Below are positions 6,832 to 27,662 of a DNA stretch of 64,000 nt, piece by piece. Positions within the stretch are counted from its first letter, which is position 1, and each line of letters opens with the position of its first letter. The notes beneath the pieces were generated by a model. That model saw nothing but the letters and a program-made list of their open reading frames with translations, ran no database searches and was not told where the DNA came from. The translations under genes were made by a program, and so were the position numbers. Source of the stretch: a virus; the IMG/VR virus record IMGVR_UViG_3300022918_000011, positions 18,689 through 82,688 of that record. One strand, written 5' to 3'.

Positions 6832-7073
6832 TTCACGTTATCTGTCGCAACGGGCAGCTTGAAATTCTCAAGCGTGAGGCGGTAAGCAGGCGTCGACGGT
6901 GGGACATCAGGGTTACATACGACACACCACTCGGTGAGCAGGTGATCCACATCAAGCCTGACAACAAATGCCGACTGCCTCAGTTAGCCAAGATAGTGTC
7001 AGACGCCATCCACGAAGACATACGCCTTACCGGCACCGTAAATAACATTGCCTGGGAAGCCAAGGGCAGATAA
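6828..7073 (+). CDS. hypothetical small basic protein
   Basis: An 81-residue basic protein with a REAVSRRRRWDIRV stretch. ATGA overlap upstream; the methyltransferase gene starts 11 bases downstream with its own strong ribosome site (AAGGAG). No family recognised. Confidence 0.6.
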   Translation: MIHVICRNGQLEILKREAVSRRRRWDIRVTYDTPLGEQVIHIKPDNKCRLPQLAKIVSDAIHEDIRLTGTVNNIAWEAKGR

Positions 7074-7083
7074 GGAGTTGCAC

Positions 7084-9042
7084 ATGCAGCAGTCGTCTCC
7101 GTACCACTATCCAGAACCCGCCAACTACCGCTGGAAAGGCGGCTTGATCATCGACAACTTCGCAGGCGGTGGCGGTGCCAGCACCGGCATCTCTCAGGCC
7201 ATCGGCCGCAGCCCCGACATCGCGGTCAATCACAACGTTGAAGCGTTGATGATGCACGAAGAGAACCACCCTACCACCCGCCATTACAACGAGTCTGTGT
7301 GGGACATCGACATCCGCAAGGCTACCGGCGGTGCGCCGGTGTTGATGGGTTGGTTCAGCCCAGATTGCACCCACTTCTCCGTCGCCAAAGGCGGCAAGCC
7401 GGTGAAGAAGGCCATCCGTGGCTTGGCCTGGATCGTCAAGAAGTGGTACGGGCAGAGCGACATGGCCATCCTGAAGATGGAAAACGTCGTCGAGTTCATG
7501 ACGTGGGGTCCACTGATTGCCAAGCGCTGCAAGGTGACCAAGCGCGTCATCAAGCTGGTGCCGGACGGCAAGGACAAGAAGGGCGAGGACAAATTCAAAG
7601 AGGTGGTCTGCGAGCCAGGCGAGTACGTTGCCTACCGCGATCAGGCTCTGGTACCGGACAAGAAGCGCGCCGGCAAAACCTTCCGCCAGTTCGTCAAACA
7701 GATGCGCGAAGCCGGTTACGCAGTCGAGTGGACTGTCAAAGGTATGGTAGCCAGCGACTTCGGCGATCCAACCACCCGCAAACGCTTCTTCCTGATGGCC
7801 CGTAAGGACGGGCTGCCAATCACCTGGCCTGCAGCTACCCATGGCAGCCCGAGGCTGGTGGCTGCCAACCCGGGCAAGTTGCAGCCGTGGAAGACGGCCG
7901 GCGACAACCTGGACTGGTCCATCCCATGCCCATCGATCTTCAATCGCAAGAAGCCGTTGGCTGACAACACGCTGCGCCGCATCTTCAAGGGCATCGAGAA
8001 GTTCGTCATCGGCGCCGGCGACAACGCCTTCCTCGTGAAGACGAACCACGGTGGCAACGAGTTCCGTGGCCAGTCAGCTGACGAGCCGCTGCAAACCATC
8101 ACCAGCAAGTTGGGTACCGGGGTGGCAGCTGTGTCGCTCACCAAGTTCAACGAGAACAGCATCGGCCAAGCCGCTGACCAGCCGCTGGACACTGTGATGG
8201 CGGGTGCTACACGGTTCGGCGCCGTACAGGCTGAGCTGCAGGTCGTGAAGGATCTGGATCAAGCCATGCATGCAGGCTTCATCGCCACCATCGATCACAC
8301 CTCCAACAAAAACCCGGCCACCGGCATGGACGAGCCGATTCCAACGGTGACATCCAAGGCGCGGCACATCCACGTTGCAGCGCTGCTCAAGCATTACACC
8401 GGTGTCGTGGGCCAGACTCTGGACAAGCCGCTGCCAACCATCACGGCAACCGATCACAATTCTGTGCTTGAGGTGACGGCGATGCATGTTCAGCGTGACT
8501 TCGGCGCCAGCATCGGCAGCCGGTTGTGCGAACCGCTCGGCGCTATCACGGCGGGTGGCGGTGGCCATGCAGCCATCATCGCTTCGTCTCTGGTGAAGCT
8601 GAAGGGCAGCTGCAACCACGGCCAGGCGTTGGACCGGCCGATCGATACCATCGCTGCCCAAGGCAACCACTACGCAGCGGTGCAGACCTTCCTTGAGGAA
8701 CAGTCGTTCCTTGTGAAGTTCTACGGCACCGGCGGCGCGGTGACTTGCGAGGCCCCACTGGACACAATCACCTCGAAGGGGCGGTTCGGTCTGGTCACCA
8801 TCCAAGGCATTGATTATCAGATCGTCGACATCGGCATGCGAATGCTGGAGCCGCACGAGCTGTTCAGCTGCCAAGGGTTCCCGGCCGACTACCGCCACGA
8901 GGTGGTGATGGGCAAGAAACTTCCGAAGCATGCACAGGTTCGCATGGTTGGCAACTCGGTACCTCCGGGGCTGGCCAGGGCGTTGGTGCAGGCGAACATC
9001 CCCAAGTGGGCACTCGAACGTAAACAGGCAGCAGTAGCATGA
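7084..9042 (+). CDS. DNA (cytosine-5) methyltransferase with repeat-containing middle region
   Basis: A 652-residue enzyme expected to transfer methyl from SAM to C5 of cytosine in phage DNA, which would protect against host restriction. Visible motifs in order: motif I NFAGGGGASTG (about 25-35), motif IV SPDCTHFS with catalytic Cys95, motif VI MENVVEF (about 131-137), motif VIII DPTTRKRFFLMARKDG, and C-terminal motifs IX/X GMRMLEPHELFSCQGFP and RMVGNSVPPGLARAL. Between about 312 and 572, where the target-recognition domain should lie, there are seven diverged copies of a unit centred on D-x-P-L-x-T-I-T. The start at 7084 follows AAGGAG; an in-frame upstream ATG at 7048 overlaps the previous gene. 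No partner endonuclease is nearby. Target sequence cannot be read from the protein. Confidence 0.9.
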   Translation: MQQSSPYHYPEPANYRWKGGLIIDNFAGGGGASTGISQAIGRSPDIAVNHNVEALMMHEENHPTTRHYNESVWDIDIRKATGGAPVLMGWFSPDCTHFSVAKGGKPVKKAIRGLAWIVKKWYGQSDMAILKMENVVEFMTWGPLIAKRCKVTKRVIKLVPDGKDKKGEDKFKEVVCEPGEYVAYRDQALVPDKKRAGKTFRQFVKQMREAGYAVEWTVKGMVASDFGDPTTRKRFFLMARKDGLPITWPAATHGSPRLVAANPGKLQPWKTAGDNLDWSIPCPSIFNRKKPLADNTLRRIFKGIEKFVIGAGDNAFLVKTNHGGNEFRGQSADEPLQTITSKLGTGVAAVSLTKFNENSIGQAADQPLDTVMAGATRFGAVQAELQVVKDLDQAMHAGFIATIDHTSNKNPATGMDEPIPTVTSKARHIHVAALLKHYTGVVGQTLDKPLPTITATDHNSVLEVTAMHVQRDFGASIGSRLCEPLGAITAGGGGHAAIIASSLVKLKGSCNHGQALDRPIDTIAAQGNHYAAVQTFLEEQSFLVKFYGTGGAVTCEAPLDTITSKGRFGLVTIQGIDYQIVDIGMRMLEPHELFSCQGFPADYRHEVVMGKKLPKHAQVRMVGNSVPPGLARALVQANIPKWALERKQAAVA

Positions 9043-11994: not shown

Positions 11995-12393
11995 GTGGAC
12001 ATCACAGCGTTGATACAGGCTGCACACCCGGAGATGTCCGGGCCGCTGGACGACCTGCTGGACAGGAAACAGAGGCTCGCGATGGACAAGGTCAAGGTTC
12101 AGTTCGCAGCAGACCAGATGGTAACGCTGCAGCAACTGATCCGCCTGGCAAAGCAGGACGACCTGCCCTCGTTGAAACTGAGCGAGGCAGCGTTGGCTAT
12201 GCTGATGGAGAAGTTGACCATCCGCTGCCGCGCTGACGCCATCGAGCAGATCAGCCGGAACATGGGCCGTCCGCTGAGTCTGGTACCGCACTTCGTATGG
12301 GCGGTTGACCTGCACTTCTACCCCAAGCGGGTAGCGGTGCCGAGGTCGCCGAAAGCAATCACCAACATTCGAAAGGACATTCAAAGTGCCTGA
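11995..12393 (+). CDS. hypothetical helical protein (GTG start)
   Basis: A 132-residue mainly helical protein (MDITALIQAAHPEMSGPLDD). It starts with GTG and overlaps the polymerase-fragment gene by 8 bases, so the two are probably translated together. No family recognised; by position it could be a partner of that fragment. Confidence 0.6.
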   Translation: MDITALIQAAHPEMSGPLDDLLDRKQRLAMDKVKVQFAADQMVTLQQLIRLAKQDDLPSLKLSEAALAMLMEKLTIRCRADAIEQISRNMGRPLSLVPHFVWAVDLHFYPKRVAVPRSPKAITNIRKDIQSA

Positions 12394-12826
12394 TGATAAA
12401 GACAACAAGACGCCAACCGGTCGCATTACCGATCCGCGCGCTGCGTTCGCTCTGCCGTATGGCAAGAGCCTGAACGGCATCGGCAAGGTCTATGTAAACG
12501 CGGACTTCTCCGCGATTGAGGAGCGTATCGCGGAGGGACTGATGGGTGCAGCCGCTGGCAGCAACCTGCTGGACCCCTACAAGATCATCGCAGCGGTGAC
12601 CCACATCGTCATGTACAGCGAGGTGACCAAAGAGCAGCGTCAGTGGGCCAAGAGTTACTTCTACCTGAACTTGTACTCCACGGAAGGCTTCAGCCTGCCG
12701 CCGCGCGTCCAACTGTTCGCCATCTACACGACCGAGGAGATCGTGCAGATTCAAATCGATACGAAGTGGCCAGGCACCCTGGACCTCTACGATCACATCG
12801 CCAACTTTTACAAGCCGAAGGTATAA
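12386..12826 (+). CDS. stand-alone family A DNA polymerase palm/fingers fragment
   Basis: A 146-residue protein that matches only the middle of a Pol I-type polymerase. In order: TPTGRI (TGR motif, about 9-14), motif A VNADFSAIEERI with Asp40 and Glu45, a D-P-Y-K segment, then VTKEQRQWAKSYFYLNLYS, which lines up with the O helix (Arg85, Lys89, Tyr93, Tyr97), then KWPGTLDLYDHI matching the Y-P-G region after O2. The spacing from D63 to K89 equals that of E. coli Pol I. Tyr93 occupies the Phe762 position, as Tyr526 does in T7. Missing are the 5' nuclease, 3'-5' exonuclease, thumb and motif C with the second catalytic Asp, so DNA synthesis alone is unlikely. The frame is intact and packed between neighbours (8-base overlap upstream, 2-base gap downstream), so it is not obviously decaying. 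A full-length polymerase lies at 23976-27662. Confidence 0.75.
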   Translation: MPDDKDNKTPTGRITDPRAAFALPYGKSLNGIGKVYVNADFSAIEERIAEGLMGAAAGSNLLDPYKIIAAVTHIVMYSEVTKEQRQWAKSYFYLNLYSTEGFSLPPRVQLFAIYTTEEIVQIQIDTKWPGTLDLYDHIANFYKPKV

Positions 12827-12828
12827 CC

Positions 12829-13605
12829 ATGCAGTTGAACAAGAAGCTCAAAGAAGAAATCATCCTCAAGCTGGTCGGCAAGGCCACCAAGAAGCACGCT
12901 CAGGCCATGAGTAAGGCAGCGGCATCGCTGAACCTGCTGTGGCGCCAGGCGGTGATCAAGCACGCCCAGCAAGCCATCCCGGAGCTGCCGCAGGAACGGT
13001 GGGCAGACTTGATCCAGTCGCAGACCTTCAAGGGTTTCGGCAGCCTGTCTGTGAGCACGGTAGCGCCCGCGCCACTGAAGGGTCAGGACAACCGCACGGT
13101 CACCAACGACATTGGCGACGCTGGTCGGCGCATCCAGTGGGAGCGGGCCGCCACTGAGAAGTATCAGTCGATCAAGGTCACGATGGCTGACAACGGTTGG
13201 AGCGGGTTCTTCAGCGTGTGCGGCGTTATGTGCCGGGACCATTTCCTGAACGTCGGCTGGCCGCTGCCCTTCCATGACCTGCCTGCGTTTAGCTGGATGT
13301 CGGTAGTCGACCTCACCGGCAAGTCTACAGGTCCGGCAGCGGCCTGGTCTCTGGACACCGCACCGCTGGCAGAACAGGCAAACGCCCTGACCGCCAAGTT
13401 CCAGAAGGTGCTGGTGGAAGCCGCCGAGTTCTACGACTCCCTGCAGATCATCATGGCGTCGATCAACACCGATACCCAGTTGATCGATCAGTTCCCCGAG
13501 GCTGCCAAGTTCCTGCCGGAGCAAGCGCCGAAACGCAATCAGCTAGCACCTACTGAACTGATTGCCAAAGCCCGCCAGATGCTTGAGACAGGCATCCCTA
13601 ACTGA
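12829..13605 (+). CDS. hypothetical protein, possibly Nmad5-like
   Basis: A 258-residue protein (MQLNKKLKEEIILKLVGKAT). The basic helical start and the C-terminal stretch ASINTDTQLIDQFPEAAKFLPE recall the phage family named nucleotide-modification-associated domain 5 (Nmad5), from memory and without a search. If right, it would act on DNA base modification. The ATG at 12829 follows the polymerase-fragment stop by 2 bases; the frame is open further upstream to 12643, over the previous gene. Confidence 0.55.
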   Translation: MQLNKKLKEEIILKLVGKATKKHAQAMSKAAASLNLLWRQAVIKHAQQAIPELPQERWADLIQSQTFKGFGSLSVSTVAPAPLKGQDNRTVTNDIGDAGRRIQWERAATEKYQSIKVTMADNGWSGFFSVCGVMCRDHFLNVGWPLPFHDLPAFSWMSVVDLTGKSTGPAAAWSLDTAPLAEQANALTAKFQKVLVEAAEFYDSLQIIMASINTDTQLIDQFPEAAKFLPEQAPKRNQLAPTELIAKARQMLETGIPN

Positions 13606-18542: not shown

Positions 18543-18781
18543 TGCAAGTTGACATGACAGAGGTGTGCGCTGACCCCGTGGACCGAGCCAGCCTGGAGGA
18601 GCAGCGCAACCTGCAGCTCAACATCCAGGCAGCGTTGGCCAAGACGGTCAAGGCCCTGCCCTACATCGGGCAGTGCTACAACTGTGACGAACTCCTCCCG
18701 CCAGGCAACCGGTTCTGCGATGCAGACTGCCGGGACGATCACCAGAAGCGTGAACGCAGCCGATCAGTGCGAGGGGTGTAG
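18542..18781 (+). CDS. small zinc-finger protein
   Basis: A 79-residue protein with a C-terminal finger: CYNCDELLPPGNRFCDADCRDDH, a C-x2-C ... C-x3-C set, followed by basic residues. The ATG at 18542 is preferred over the adjacent GTG because GGGAGAG sits about 6 bases upstream. Such fingers are common in small phage proteins beside helicase genes; role unknown, nucleic-acid binding likely. Confidence 0.65.
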   Translation: MQVDMTEVCADPVDRASLEEQRNLQLNIQAALAKTVKALPYIGQCYNCDELLPPGNRFCDADCRDDHQKRERSRSVRGV

Positions 18782-22498: not shown

Positions 22499-23134
22499 AT
22501 GAAAGCAGAACTCGTAGATTTTATGGGCACCGACCTGACAGTGGTTAACGCTGCCCGGGTGTCAATGGCCAAGCATAAAGACGTTCTCGACGCTGGCGAT
22601 GAGAAGCTGATCAGCTACCTGGCCTCGCATGGTCACTGGACCCCAGCGTCCCACCCGATGATCCAGATGCGCGAAACGGTACCGATCTTTGTGGCGCGGC
22701 AGCGGTTCAAGCACATGGTCGGGTTCACCTACAACGAAGTGTCCAGGCGCTATGTTGACGACACCCCTGAGTTCTACGTTCCCGACGTGTGGCGCAGCCG
22801 CCCGGACGGTAGCATCAAGCAAGGCAGCGCTGGAGCCCACCCCCGCAGTCACATGTGGTCAGCGGCTTACGACCTGTTCATCGACCAGTGTGTTGAGCTG
22901 TACGAGGGCATGATCGCTGACGGCGTGGCGCCAGAGCAGGCCCGCATGGTCTTGCCTCAGTCGATGCTGACCAGCTACTACGTCACAGGCAGCCTGTTTG
23001 CATGGGCTCGTGCGTACAAGCAGCGGGTCGATGCTCACGCCCAGCACGAGATTCAAGTGCTCGGGCACCAGTGGGGCGAGATCCTGAAACCGTTGTTCCC
23101 TGTCAGCTGGGCAGCGTTTGCGGAGGCAGCATGA
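22499..23134 (+). CDS. thyX: flavin-dependent thymidylate synthase-like protein (ThyX)
   Basis: A 211-residue protein of ThyX length, expected to make dTMP from dUMP with FAD and methylenetetrahydrofolate. The core reads RQRFKHMVGFTYNEVSRRY. The NEVSRRY half of the ThyX signature is exact, but the RHR part of the usual RHR-x7-S is replaced by KHM, as in a phage-associated branch I recall with KHQ. DDTPEFYVPDVWR follows, as in that branch. The gene sits between MazG-like and exonuclease genes. A changed chemistry, such as making a modified pyrimidine, cannot be ruled out. ATGA overlap with the next gene. Confidence 0.82.
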   Translation: MKAELVDFMGTDLTVVNAARVSMAKHKDVLDAGDEKLISYLASHGHWTPASHPMIQMRETVPIFVARQRFKHMVGFTYNEVSRRYVDDTPEFYVPDVWRSRPDGSIKQGSAGAHPRSHMWSAAYDLFIDQCVELYEGMIADGVAPEQARMVLPQSMLTSYYVTGSLFAWARAYKQRVDAHAQHEIQVLGHQWGEILKPLFPVSWAAFAEAA

Positions 23135-23694
23135 TCAAGCACGGCATCTCAATCGATCTCGAAACCCTTGGCCTGCACAACGACGCGCCGATCTTTGCCA
23201 TTGGCGCCTGCCGGTTCAACTATGACGGCAGCGATTGGGGAATTGGCCAAGGCCAGTATTTCTCCATGGAAGTGAACCCGGAGGGCCAAGGCCACCCGCA
23301 GGTCAGCAACCTGTTCTTCTGGCTGCAGAACGACACCCGACAGCTGTTCGCCAGCCAGTATGCTGACCCACTGGACGGCGTACTTCTGAAGCTGAACGAG
23401 TGGTTCGCTGACTTCGAAGGCAACATCTGGATCCGCGGCAATAAGGATTCGGTATGGCTGGAGTCGGCGTATGCCAGGCACCCAGGCATCAAACCACCGT
23501 TCCGCTACAACCAGTTCCGTGAGGTCCGCACGCTGATCGACTTCGCTCAGCAGGTGGTGCCGCATGACGAGCGGCTGAACCGAGGGTTCACGCTGCCCGA
23601 ACGCTGGGAGCAGGAACACGAGGCTCTGGACGACGCGCGGTACCAAGCCCGCTGCATCCAGGCTGTGTACAAAGCCTTCCCGATCAAGGAGTAA
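23131..23694 (+). CDS. DnaQ-like 3'-5' exonuclease (Rv2179c/ExoVIII-like)
   Basis: A 187-residue nuclease. SIDLETLGLHNDAPIFAIGACRF contains the first D-x-E metal site, NKDSVWLESAY gives the middle acidic site, and EHEALDDARYQA supplies the His and final Asp of a DEDDh active site. The wording DLETLG..APIFAIGA matches the group related to exonuclease VIII and Rv2179c. The ATG at 23131 overlaps the thyX stop (ATGA); upstream starts lie inside thyX. It may trim DNA ends in recombination or degrade host DNA or RNA. Confidence 0.8.
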   Translation: MIKHGISIDLETLGLHNDAPIFAIGACRFNYDGSDWGIGQGQYFSMEVNPEGQGHPQVSNLFFWLQNDTRQLFASQYADPLDGVLLKLNEWFADFEGNIWIRGNKDSVWLESAYARHPGIKPPFRYNQFREVRTLIDFAQQVVPHDERLNRGFTLPERWEQEHEALDDARYQARCIQAVYKAFPIKE

Positions 23695-23975: not shown

Positions 23976-26900
23976 ATGCATTACCACATCCTCGACTTCA
24001 AAGCGGTCGCCAAGCACTCGTACTACGGTGCCAGCGACCCTGAAGCAATCCATTGTGAAGTGAAGGACCGCCGCTTTGCCCATTGGCAGGTCGGCGCCGC
24101 TGGGCTGCTCAGCCGTTACTTCCAGGCCGTACTGGATGCCGGGGATAGCCCTCGACAGCTGCTGGTTGCCCACGACATGGGCCAAGAGTTCCGCCAAGGC
24201 ATCTTCCCAGACTACAAGGGGCAGAAGTCCAAGAAGACCGAGAACAAAAGCCCGGTCGAGATGGAACAGATCGAGGGCCTGTACAACTGGTCGAAGCAGT
24301 TCTTCACCGCCGTCGGCGCCACGCAGATCGGCGTCAAGGGCGTCGAAGCGGATGACGTGATTGCCTGGGTTGCCCAGAAAGTTACGGCAGCGGGCGGTAC
24401 GCTAACCATCTACACCGTCGACTTCGACTTGGCAGCGTTGGCCTCAGACGCTGTCAGCATTGTCACCCCCAAGGGCGTATTCCACGGCGACGACGGTGTC
24501 TTCGATCTGGAAAGCGACAACGACCTGAACGGGTTCCCGTACCACCTGGCCAGCTTCTGCAAATCCATCCTCGGTGATGCCTCCGACAACTACGGCGGCG
24601 TGAAGGGGATGGGCAAGGTTGCCCTGCGCAACATGCAGAAGGCTTTCGGCGATGACGGCCTGCTGGAACTGCAGAAGGTCGTGGACACCGGCAACACCGA
24701 CATCCTCAACGAGGTGATCGCTGACACTGGCAGCAAGGAACTGAAGAAGCTGCTGGAAAACTTCACCGACTGGAAGCTGGGCTGGCGCCTGGCACAGCTG
24801 CGGCCTGAGTTGTGCTGGAAACCCCGCAAGAACAAGCTGGTCAAGCCCATCGTCTACAAGCGCGTGCCGAACCCAGGCAAGCTGCTTGAGCTGCTGACCG
24901 AGATCGACCACCAAGACCGCTGGGACGACACGTTCGCTGAACTGATGCCCAACCCGTTCGCTGTTGATGCAGCGAACTGGGGCGAGATGCGTGAAGCAAT
25001 CCTCAGCGAGCTCACCGCCGGTGACCTGATGGCCTTCGACTATGAGTCCTCTGACAAAGAGCCAATCCGGGAATTCCGGATGGCTTCTGGTGCCGGTGAG
25101 GACTTTGTCGATACGCTCAGCCAGGAGCTGGCTGGTGCATCGTTCCAGTTCGGCAAGCATCTGGAGAACGTCATCTACATCCCGCTGGATCACCGCGACG
25201 CGATGAACCTGAACCGGGAAGTGGTGCTGGAGATCCTGAAGCACGCCAAGGCCAAGGGCATCCGCCGGGTGGCACACAACGCCTTCTTCGAGGGTGTGGT
25301 GACCTACACCAACCTCGGCGAGTGGCTGACCGACGTGGAAGATACCCGGATCATGCAGCGGTTCTTTGACGAGAACAGCAGCGCTGGTCTGAAGTCCATG
25401 TCAGCTGACTATCTGGGCTTCGATCAGGTCTCGTTCAAGGAGACGTTGGCGAAGGGCTCCATCCGGGAGGGTGGCGCCACGATGATGTGCGAGCTGACCC
25501 TGGACGAGGTGTTCACCTACGGTACCGACGACAGCTTGGTAACCGGCCATCTGGCTGACCTGATGCAGCTGCAACTGATCCTTGATGGGCAGTGGCTGTT
25601 CTATCAGGAATACGCGGTGAAGCCGACTGAGGTCCTGCAGCGTGCCTACGTTGAAGGCGTGAAGATGAACTGGGCTCTGCAGAAACGTCTGCACCAGCGA
25701 GATCTGAAGGCCATTGAGGAAGGCATGATCGAACTGCGGGCCATCCTGAAGAAGAACGTCACCGGCAACCAGACGGCAGGCGCTGCCTCGCTCATCGCTG
25801 CCGAGAAGGACTACGTCTACAAGTCAGCGCTGAAAAAGTACGACGACAAGGAAATGGCGTCAACCAAGCTCCACGAATGGAAGCGCGCGGTCGAAGCAGC
25901 TTGCCAGTACACACCGTACCGCGAAGAACTGGTCATGCCGGCCTTCGCTTTCACGGCCAAGCAGGTATCGGCGGCTGCCAAGGCCGTTGGGCTGCCAGAG
26001 CTGGAGAAGTTGAACTACAAAGCCTGGGCTGACTACATGGTGCAGGTCGGCGCCGAGGGTTTCGAGGAAGACTGGGGGCTCACAGAGCCGCAGCTGGAAC
26101 TCGTCAAGACGGTGGCCAAGGCCATGGAGTTGGGCTGCATCAGCATCTCCAACATGCGCAAGCTGGTGGAAGCTGAGCAGGAACAAGGGCAGGAGGCTGC
26201 CGACGGCGGCCCTACCGAGAAGGCTCAACGGCTTGAAGCTGCTGAAGCCTACTGGGATGTGCTGGGCGAGGCTATCCAACGCATGGCGGGTGTCGAGGCT
26301 CGGACAGTTGCCTTCGGTGACCCACTGAACGTTGGCAGCCCGGTGCAGATGCAGCGTCTGCTGTACTGCAAGATCGGGGTGCCGGTGCGGTTGTTCGGGA
26401 AGATCAGCAAAGGGCGTCTGCAACTGGGCATCCGGGTCGCTGGTCCATCCACGGATGAGAAAGCAGTCGAGACGGCACTGGCCAACGACATCACAGCGGA
26501 TGGCTGGGAGCGCGAAGCTCTGGCCGTGCTGCTCAAGGTCAAGTCAGCGACGACCCGATGCAGCCTGTACCACGACAAGTGGCCACTGTGGCTGCACCGC
26601 GATGGCAAGGTCCACCCTTACGTCACCGATTACGGTACCGACACCGGCCGGCCAACAGCCAGCTCGATGAACGTGCTGCAGGTGTCGAAGAAGGACAAGA
26701 TCATGCGGTCCTGCTTCATCCCGCCGAGTCAGGACTACGTTTGTGTGGCCATCGACTTCAACGGCCAAGAGATCCGGTTGATGGCGAACCTTGCCAACGA
26801 CCCGGTGCTGCTGTCGGTGTACGAGCCAGGCAACGAGAAGGATCTGCACAGCATGACCGGTGCGGGTATCGCGAAGCTCTCCTACGATCAGTTCACACTG

Positions 26901-27662
26901 ATCCGGGAAGATGTGAAGCACCCCGACAACAAGAAGATCAAAAACATCCGGGACAAGAAGGCCAAGCCTTTGAACTTCGGTATGGCCTACGGCGCTGGTC
27001 CAGGCACGCTGGCTCGCAACATGGTTGCCCCGGTCGAGGAAGCGAAGCAGCTCCTCGAAGACACCATGAACCTCTACTACCGGATTCGTCCGTGGCAGGA
27101 AGAGAGTGCTGCGTTCATGGACAAGCATGGCTACACGCTGACGGCCTACGGCAACAAGCGTCACGCCAGCAACGACCTGTTCTCCACTGACAAGGGCAAG
27201 GTGTCCCGTCAGCATCGTCAGGGTACCAACTTCGAGATCCAGGGCTCGGCAGCTGACATGCTGCGGATCGCACTGACCAACGTGTCGAAGTCCGGGATGA
27301 TGGATCGGCTGCGGTTTGTTTTCTTCGCACCGATCTATGACGAAGTGGTTTCGTGGGTCCACAAGGACGACGTCTACGACTACTGCCTGGAGATGGGCGC
27401 AATCCTTGAAGCCACCACACCTCCTGGCCACATTGTTCGGCAGGTGCCGGAGTATTCAATCGGTTGCGACTGGGGTAACGTACATGAACTGGGCCGCGAC
27501 ATCAGCCCAGAGAACGTGGCCAAGTACGTCAAGCTCTCGCTGGAAGACAGCAAGCCAATCTGGGCAGAGGATGTGCTTGAGCCTTTCGATCCTATCCTGA
27601 AACGTGTTCTGGTCGAGTTGGCCGAGGACGAGGAGGCTGAAGTTGAAGTCATGCCTTACTGA
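23976..27662 (+). CDS. DNA polymerase I with 5' nuclease and 3'-5' exonuclease domains
   Basis: A 1228-residue replicative polymerase. The N-terminal 5' nuclease shows HDMGQEFRQGIFPDYKGQ, GVEADDVIAWVA, TVDFDLAAL and the H3TH segment LGDASDNYGGVKGMG (to about residue 300). The 3'-5' exonuclease has exo I FDYESSD, exo II HNAFFEGVV (Glu where Asp is usual) and exo III YGTDDSLV. The polymerase has motif A IDFNGQEIRL, motif B RDKKAKPLNFGMAYG and motif C IYDEVVSWV (Tyr in place of the usual His; catalytic Asp kept). It is about 300 residues longer than E. coli Pol I; roughly 200 extra lie between exonuclease and palm, near 585-785, with a Glu/Gln-rich stretch. Its stop overlaps the next start by one base. 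Confidence 0.92.
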   Translation: MHYHILDFKAVAKHSYYGASDPEAIHCEVKDRRFAHWQVGAAGLLSRYFQAVLDAGDSPRQLLVAHDMGQEFRQGIFPDYKGQKSKKTENKSPVEMEQIEGLYNWSKQFFTAVGATQIGVKGVEADDVIAWVAQKVTAAGGTLTIYTVDFDLAALASDAVSIVTPKGVFHGDDGVFDLESDNDLNGFPYHLASFCKSILGDASDNYGGVKGMGKVALRNMQKAFGDDGLLELQKVVDTGNTDILNEVIADTGSKELKKLLENFTDWKLGWRLAQLRPELCWKPRKNKLVKPIVYKRVPNPGKLLELLTEIDHQDRWDDTFAELMPNPFAVDAANWGEMREAILSELTAGDLMAFDYESSDKEPIREFRMASGAGEDFVDTLSQELAGASFQFGKHLENVIYIPLDHRDAMNLNREVVLEILKHAKAKGIRRVAHNAFFEGVVTYTNLGEWLTDVEDTRIMQRFFDENSSAGLKSMSADYLGFDQVSFKETLAKGSIREGGATMMCELTLDEVFTYGTDDSLVTGHLADLMQLQLILDGQWLFYQEYAVKPTEVLQRAYVEGVKMNWALQKRLHQRDLKAIEEGMIELRAILKKNVTGNQTAGAASLIAAEKDYVYKSALKKYDDKEMASTKLHEWKRAVEAACQYTPYREELVMPAFAFTAKQVSAAAKAVGLPELEKLNYKAWADYMVQVGAEGFEEDWGLTEPQLELVKTVAKAMELGCISISNMRKLVEAEQEQGQEAADGGPTEKAQRLEAAEAYWDVLGEAIQRMAGVEARTVAFGDPLNVGSPVQMQRLLYCKIGVPVRLFGKISKGRLQLGIRVAGPSTDEKAVETALANDITADGWEREALAVLLKVKSATTRCSLYHDKWPLWLHRDGKVHPYVTDYGTDTGRPTASSMNVLQVSKKDKIMRSCFIPPSQDYVCVAIDFNGQEIRLMANLANDPVLLSVYEPGNEKDLHSMTGAGIAKLSYDQFTLIREDVKHPDNKKIKNIRDKKAKPLNFGMAYGAGPGTLARNMVAPVEEAKQLLEDTMNLYYRIRPWQEESAAFMDKHGYTLTAYGNKRHASNDLFSTDKGKVSRQHRQGTNFEIQGSAADMLRIALTNVSKSGMMDRLRFVFFAPIYDEVVSWVHKDDVYDYCLEMGAILEATTPPGHIVRQVPEYSIGCDWGNVHELGRDISPENVAKYVKLSLEDSKPIWAEDVLEPFDPILKRVLVELAEDEEAEVEVMPY

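Follow-up and report, generated by a model that had tools for sequence, protein, structure and literature searches.

A stand-alone phage gene apparently derived from the fingers of bacterial-type DNA polymerase I, a candidate non-catalytic binding protein

In DNA polymerase I (Klenow, Bst) the O helix binds the incoming nucleotide, and we take Tyr714 of the Bst enzyme to be the equivalent of Y766. This tyrosine sits opposite the incoming nucleotide (PMC6231770). Among phage proteins, gp12 of phiKMV (phrog_6982, 269 residues) is annotated either as 'DNA polymerase' or as 'putative DNA-binding protein', and the phage group to which it belongs has a separate polymerase of about 800 residues (PAXYB1 ORF28, PMC5638911). 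In the open-access literature searched, we found no account of a polymerase protein that consists of fingers only. Here we analyze such a gene in a stretch of 64,000 nucleotides (the window) that covers positions 18,689 to 82,688 of the IMG/VR virus record IMGVR_UViG_3300022918_000011. We propose that its product is a small non-catalytic finger protein of the bacterial Pol I type carrying a lineage-specific tail, which would act as a binder and most likely as an accessory, host-directed mimic of the Pol I fingers, a reading to which we give about an even chance.

The 146-residue gene and its relation to DNA polymerase I

The gene occupies positions 12386..12826 of the forward strand as an intact frame of 146 residues with a GTG start, which overlaps the stop of the gene before it (11995..12393, same strand). 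An AAAGGA resembling a ribosome-binding site lies at 12372..12377 (+), the relatives showing a similar junction (..gaaagga....aaGTG), and the third-position GC of 0.78 matches the codon-position GC pattern of the adjacent genes; this is a real gene. The initial annotation had described it as a stand-alone piece of a family A DNA polymerase without motif C, and both statements hold. In Pfam, DNA_pol_A matches residues 33-108 at model positions 151-230 (E=2e-4), with a score of 20.9 bits that is under the curated gathering cut-off of 34.3 bits, the full polymerase of the same phage scoring 162. When the 640 reading frames of the window were compared with a profile built from 35 bacterial Pol I sequences, two matches were obtained, this frame (E=4e-6) and the full polymerase. 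DNA_pol_A is also matched by the seven other members of the family described below, no unrelated family being consistently matched across those seven, and a search of the PDB with the family profile listed family A polymerases only, with Klenow at the top (E=8e-6). Residues 33-109 correspond to the region of a family A polymerase that runs from motif A to the O helix.

With hhalign the fragment scored 98% against bacterial Pol I and 22% against the polymerase of its own phage, and a derivation from the latter was rejected on these values; the bacterial set comprised five sequences chosen by a motif common to the fragment, so that unbiased support comes from the PDB profile search and from a scan of Pseudomonadota. 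In that scan the profile matched 237 of 299 genomes. The frames of the listed matches were long, almost without exception of the size of Pol I; no stand-alone copy was found among the matches listed, the shortest listed frame having 270 residues. These comparisons show that about 70 residues of the fragment descend from Pol I of the bacterial type.

Four segments can be distinguished on the forward strand. An N-terminal extension (12386..12481) is found in the window member only, in which 39 residues precede the motif A aspartate, compared with 5-12 in the other seven. It contains the TGR which the initial annotation had listed as a motif; the likeness is marginal only (22 of 1000 shuffles) and absent from the other seven. 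The motif A piece DFSAIEER (12503..12526) follows, with D40, E45 and R47 at the spacing of Pol I D705, E710 and R712, as had been claimed for the two acidic residues. The N/O-helix module LLDPYK...VTKEQRQWAKSYFYLNLYS (12566..12679, residues 61-98) holds the equivalents of D732, K758 and Y766, and its R85, K89, Y93 and Y97 follow, also as claimed, the Pol I spacing of motif B, RxxxKxxx(F/Y)xxxY(G). Lastly, the C-terminal tail (12677..12823, residues 98-146) is conserved in the family and not recognisably polymerase. These roughly 50 residues after the O helix show no likeness to Pol I, nor any clear match beyond the finger family among phage records, and in the seven non-window members their mean pair identity is 61%, compared with 60% for the N/O part. 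The W-P-G segment of the tail, previously taken as a polymerase feature, can be put down to chance, since 373 of 1000 tail shuffles score as well, and it is absent from the other seven members.

Alignment of the eight members with the 35 Pol I sequences indicates which residues were kept and which were lost. The catalytic aspartate of motif A (D705), E710, D732, K758 and Y766 are present in 8/8 members, and R712, H734, N761 and F762 in 7/8, so that of the nucleotide-facing residues of Pol I D705, E710, K758 and Y766 are retained throughout and F762 in all members but one. Q708 is lost and G767, the glycine following motif B, is replaced in all eight, and S707 is lost in seven. A tyrosine stands at 746 in 8/8 and a serine at 747 in 7/8, a pair seen in none of the 35 Pol I sequences. 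Two observations count against a finger mimic: R754 is off the Pol I spacing in 6/8 members, and the window copy itself has changed at three positions, with Tyr in place of H734, Phe in place of N761 and Tyr in place of F762. Motif C, the thumb and a complete palm are absent from the 146-residue frame, and because motif C and the thumb are missing catalysis is excluded; judged from its residues, the product is not an active polymerase.

The AlphaFold models are of moderate confidence (pLDDT 65 and 75). The initial annotation had proposed a superposition on palm and fingers: when the predicted structures were submitted to Foldseek family A polymerases ranked first, but with E values above 0.6, a TM of only about 0.25 and poor superposition. 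Against PDB and BFVD the top matches were likewise nearly all family A, at E values of at least 0.3 save for the PMBT3 homologue itself. The Foldseek comparison thus does not establish the fold of the fragment, and the moderate confidence of the models and the poor superposition count against reading the fragment as a finger mimic.

Neighboring genes and distribution among related phages

The gene that follows (12829..13605, +) matches Pfam Nmad5 (E=6e-10) and belongs to phrog_15487, yet in PHROGs and RefSeq it bears the label 'DNA polymerase', as do its counterparts in KPP25, R18, Lana and PMBT3. Taken at face value, this label would make the fragment one portion of a split polymerase whose remainder would lie in the adjacent gene or be joined by splicing, and such arrangements have parallels, since phages with split family A genes are on record (annotated polAn/polAm/polAc) and HNH genes interrupt the phage polymerase gene (PMC5537680). 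Nevertheless, the downstream gene has no detectable polymerase similarity (hhalign against Pol I 0.2%) and lacks motif C as well, KPP25, R18, Jeremy, UAntarctica and the genome L018 have it but not the fragment, and no other Pol I exon was found in the 640 window frames. The downstream gene was consequently rejected as the missing half, the split-polymerase explanation is largely refuted and highly improbable, and the label is a probable mislabel that has spread. Elsewhere in the window, positions 7048-9042 encode a C5 cytosine methyltransferase of 664 residues whose Pfam match is split into three stretches, a large insert therefore being likely.

A search for the same short gene in related phages, suggested at the outset, found copies in the same operon slot of seven other genomes, namely the Pseudomonas phages Lana (gp58) and PMBT3 (AUM59663) and the IMG/VR genomes L013, L014, L017, L019 and L024. 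With the window member the family comprises eight intact frames of 121-146 residues without internal stops, the relatives being down to 28-36% identical to the window member; a scan of IMG/VR with the fragment as a single sequence gave no match. In 8/8 genomes the short frame has the same tail and conserved neighbors, in the order upstream gene (in the window 11995..12393, similar to Lana gp59 and UAntarctica uan_103), a membrane-protein gene in three genomes, fragment, Nmad5-like gene, small gene and Dda/RecD-like helicase. UAntarctica and L018 are without the fragment, the flanking genes abutting there. L018 and the carrier L019 have polymerases that are 90% identical, and their difference at the slot is exactly the fragment frame.

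The small membrane-protein gene is found in the slot of PMBT3, L013, L018 and L019 and in none of the others read, which marks a variable cassette site; it directly precedes either the Nmad5-like gene or the fragment, and in PMBT3 it is the immediate upstream neighbor of the fragment. Among the eight carriers and two non-carriers no neighbor gene strictly follows the presence and absence of the fragment. A gene for an Rv2179c-like 3'-5' exonuclease (window 23002-23694) is found in 7/8 carriers (not in PMBT3) and 0/2 non-carriers, a difference that is not significant with two non-carriers only.

The dN/dS of the fragment, whose calculation had also been proposed, is 0.28-0.79 and similar to that of the adjacent gene, these being rough values from a counting method. 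A full-length polymerase of about 1,220 residues with motifs A, B and C intact is present in all ten genomes; as the initial annotation had stated, the window phage has one too (23976..27662, +, 1228 residues, with 5'-3' exonuclease, 3'-5' exonuclease and polymerase parts intact). Its claim of a kept, separate, non-catalytic role agrees with these data and with the eight intact homologues in the same slot. One might still regard the fragment, being a piece of a longer enzyme, as the decaying remnant of a polymerase gene that was horizontally acquired or swapped out, polymerase swapping being common in phages (PMC11348598). Against this stand the eight frames that remain intact down to 28-36% identity, the dN/dS below 1, the newly conserved tail and the derived changes at Q708, G767, 746 and 747, which are uniform and therefore argue against decay. 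Likewise, the fragment is not the broken end of a longer polymerase gene, the case that had been named as contrary to a separate role: no longer version was found in any relative, the fragment is nearer to bacterial Pol I, and L018 and L019 differ by the exact frame. Decay is thus largely refuted and retains only a slight probability. Judged by these comparisons, the fragment is under purifying selection and has been gained or lost cleanly as one gene. The finger-only proteins are a real, conserved and unusual family, and the Lana-type family is probably one of several such.

Finger modules in other phages and the putative role of the fragment

Other short proteins were first indicated by a viral-structure search. 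A 60-residue protein of the Pectobacterium phages CX5 and PPWS2 matches DNA_pol_A above the Pfam cut-off (E=6e-12 and 2e-12). In Acinetobacter phages of the genus Saclayvirus a stand-alone frame has 55 residues in TAC1 and 66 in phiAbaA1 (20 Acinetobacter records), in the Friunavirus-type phages that were read it has 59-62 residues (62 in Abp1; 33 Acinetobacter records), and in phiKMV gp12, matched by 94 Pseudomonas phage records, the first 40 residues are the N/O-helix module, all of these record counts including GenBank/RefSeq duplicates. The modules of CX5/PPWS2, Saclayvirus, Friunavirus and phiKMV gp12, stand-alone or fused, lie at L115 3950-4132, L116 1964-2146, L117 2992-3159, L128 3492-3680 and L126 4989-5798 of our record set; in CX5/PPWS2, TAC1, Abp1 and gp12 the N/O module is present and motif C absent. 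The pN/pS of the mini-finger pairs tested, CX5/PPWS2 among them, is 0.18-0.44. D732, K758 and Y766 are kept in all representatives compared except that of Acinetobacter phage Pipo, while among them only the Lana family retains D705, which is Glu in CX5/PPWS2 and lies in a segment that is absent from the Friunavirus and Saclayvirus frames. The Tyr-Ser at 746-747, common to the Lana family and CX5/PPWS2 and found in 0/35 Pol I, bears on the choice between common descent and repeated excision from Pol I, over a stretch whose shortness precludes a tree. These short frames may have independent origins, and their functions may differ.

In Pipo (L133 704-1195) the mini-finger frame is disrupted: its O helix passes into YIYIYIY, and about 110 other residues continue the frame. 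A fusion of the fragment with the Nmad5-like gene was looked for in phiKMV gp12 and not found, and a motif A-like stretch past the O helix of gp12 (residue 78) was set aside as unconserved in divergent homologues. The published gp6-gp12 deletion of PE3 could not be mapped onto phiKMV gp12 (PMC7835345).

According to the mechanism that we propose, the motif A residues and the N and O helices of a bacterial-type Pol I would have been joined to a lineage-specific tail, and the product would act by binding rather than by chemistry. What we infer as ligand or molecular target of the mimic is that the O-helix face may have been kept to bind a nucleotide or a 3' end, or else to resemble the Pol I fingers to a protein; the tail would serve as an interaction surface, and the mimic would compete with or titrate something that meets the Pol I fingers during infection. 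A host-directed mimic seems most likely because unrelated phages carry the N/O module on its own, among their small early or accessory genes, with D705 lost and D732, K758 and Y766 kept.

The location of the Lana-group gene, just upstream of the Dda/RecD-like helicase, a primase-like gene and the polymerase, also fits a role at the replisome, and the nucleotide-facing residues kept in 8/8 members would suit an accessory of phage replication or repair that binds dNTP, the primer end or ssDNA and modulates the phage polymerase or the Dda-type helicase. However, the polymerase and helicase genes are the same in UAntarctica and L018, which are without the fragment, and unrelated phages hold the module far from their polymerase gene, as in PPWS2, where the mini-protein (gp05) is among small genes by the left end and the full polymerase (gp27) about 10 kb off. 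We regard such an accessory as rather unlikely; the on/off accessory distribution together with the recurrence among early or small genes speaks for the host-directed mimic rather than for a core factor of replication.

As a sub-case of mimicry, the fragment might be a decoy for a defense system that senses DNA polymerase. Defenses triggered by phage polymerases have been reported, Borvo among them, as have mutations in a family A polymerase that allow escape from AbiQ (PMC11348598), and the gene content of the slot varies. In addition, the adjoining gene is Nmad5-like, and a point mutation in Nmad5 of a Dhillonvirus leads to escape from Tmn (PMC11846954), although for the role of the fragment this analogy would be a lead only. 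On the other hand, the fragment resembles bacterial Pol I and not the phage polymerase that a sensor would see, and no match to a defense-related family was obtained, which makes a decoy quite unlikely. Returning to the host-directed mimic in its general form, we tentatively suggest that at least four unrelated phage groups may keep the N/O hairpin, stand-alone or fused, to target host Pol I, partners of that enzyme or a defense that senses polymerase, as an unrecognised class of mimics, a proposal that we consider doubtful in its full breadth. Of the stand-alone forms that we found, the window gene would be the largest in such a class.

Comparison with known systems

That the module recurs in unrelated phages suggests a use of the O-helix hairpin apart from DNA synthesis, one that can be put to the test, and several genes named 'DNA polymerase' in RefSeq or PHROGs (phiKMV gp12, PPWS2 gp05) hold only the finger module. 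The Lana family shares with bacterial DNA polymerase I (family A, PF00476) about 70 residues from motif A to the O helix, but in its 121-146 residues it has neither motif C, thumb, the rest of the palm nor the exonucleases, has lost Q708 and G767, and has a tail of its own. With phiKMV gp12 it shares the N/O-helix module, which in gp12 forms the N-terminal 40 residues; there, in contrast, the module is joined to the rest of a larger protein, hydrophobic at its C terminus, and has no motif A ahead of it. The frames of CX5/PPWS2, Friunavirus (phrog_38792) and Saclayvirus resemble the fragment in being stand-alone N/O modules without motif C, but with 55-66 residues they are without the D705 of motif A and their tails are unlike that of the Lana family. 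As with divPolA1 and divPolA2 (PMC11348598), a second, divergent family A sequence stands beside a regular polymerase, but those proteins keep the palm with its catalytic residues (PMC11348598), whereas the fragment is without a complete palm. Finally, noncanonical bacterial PolX proteins are reported to be polymerase homologues likewise kept without polymerase activity, though they belong to another family and act as exonucleases (PMC9226535).
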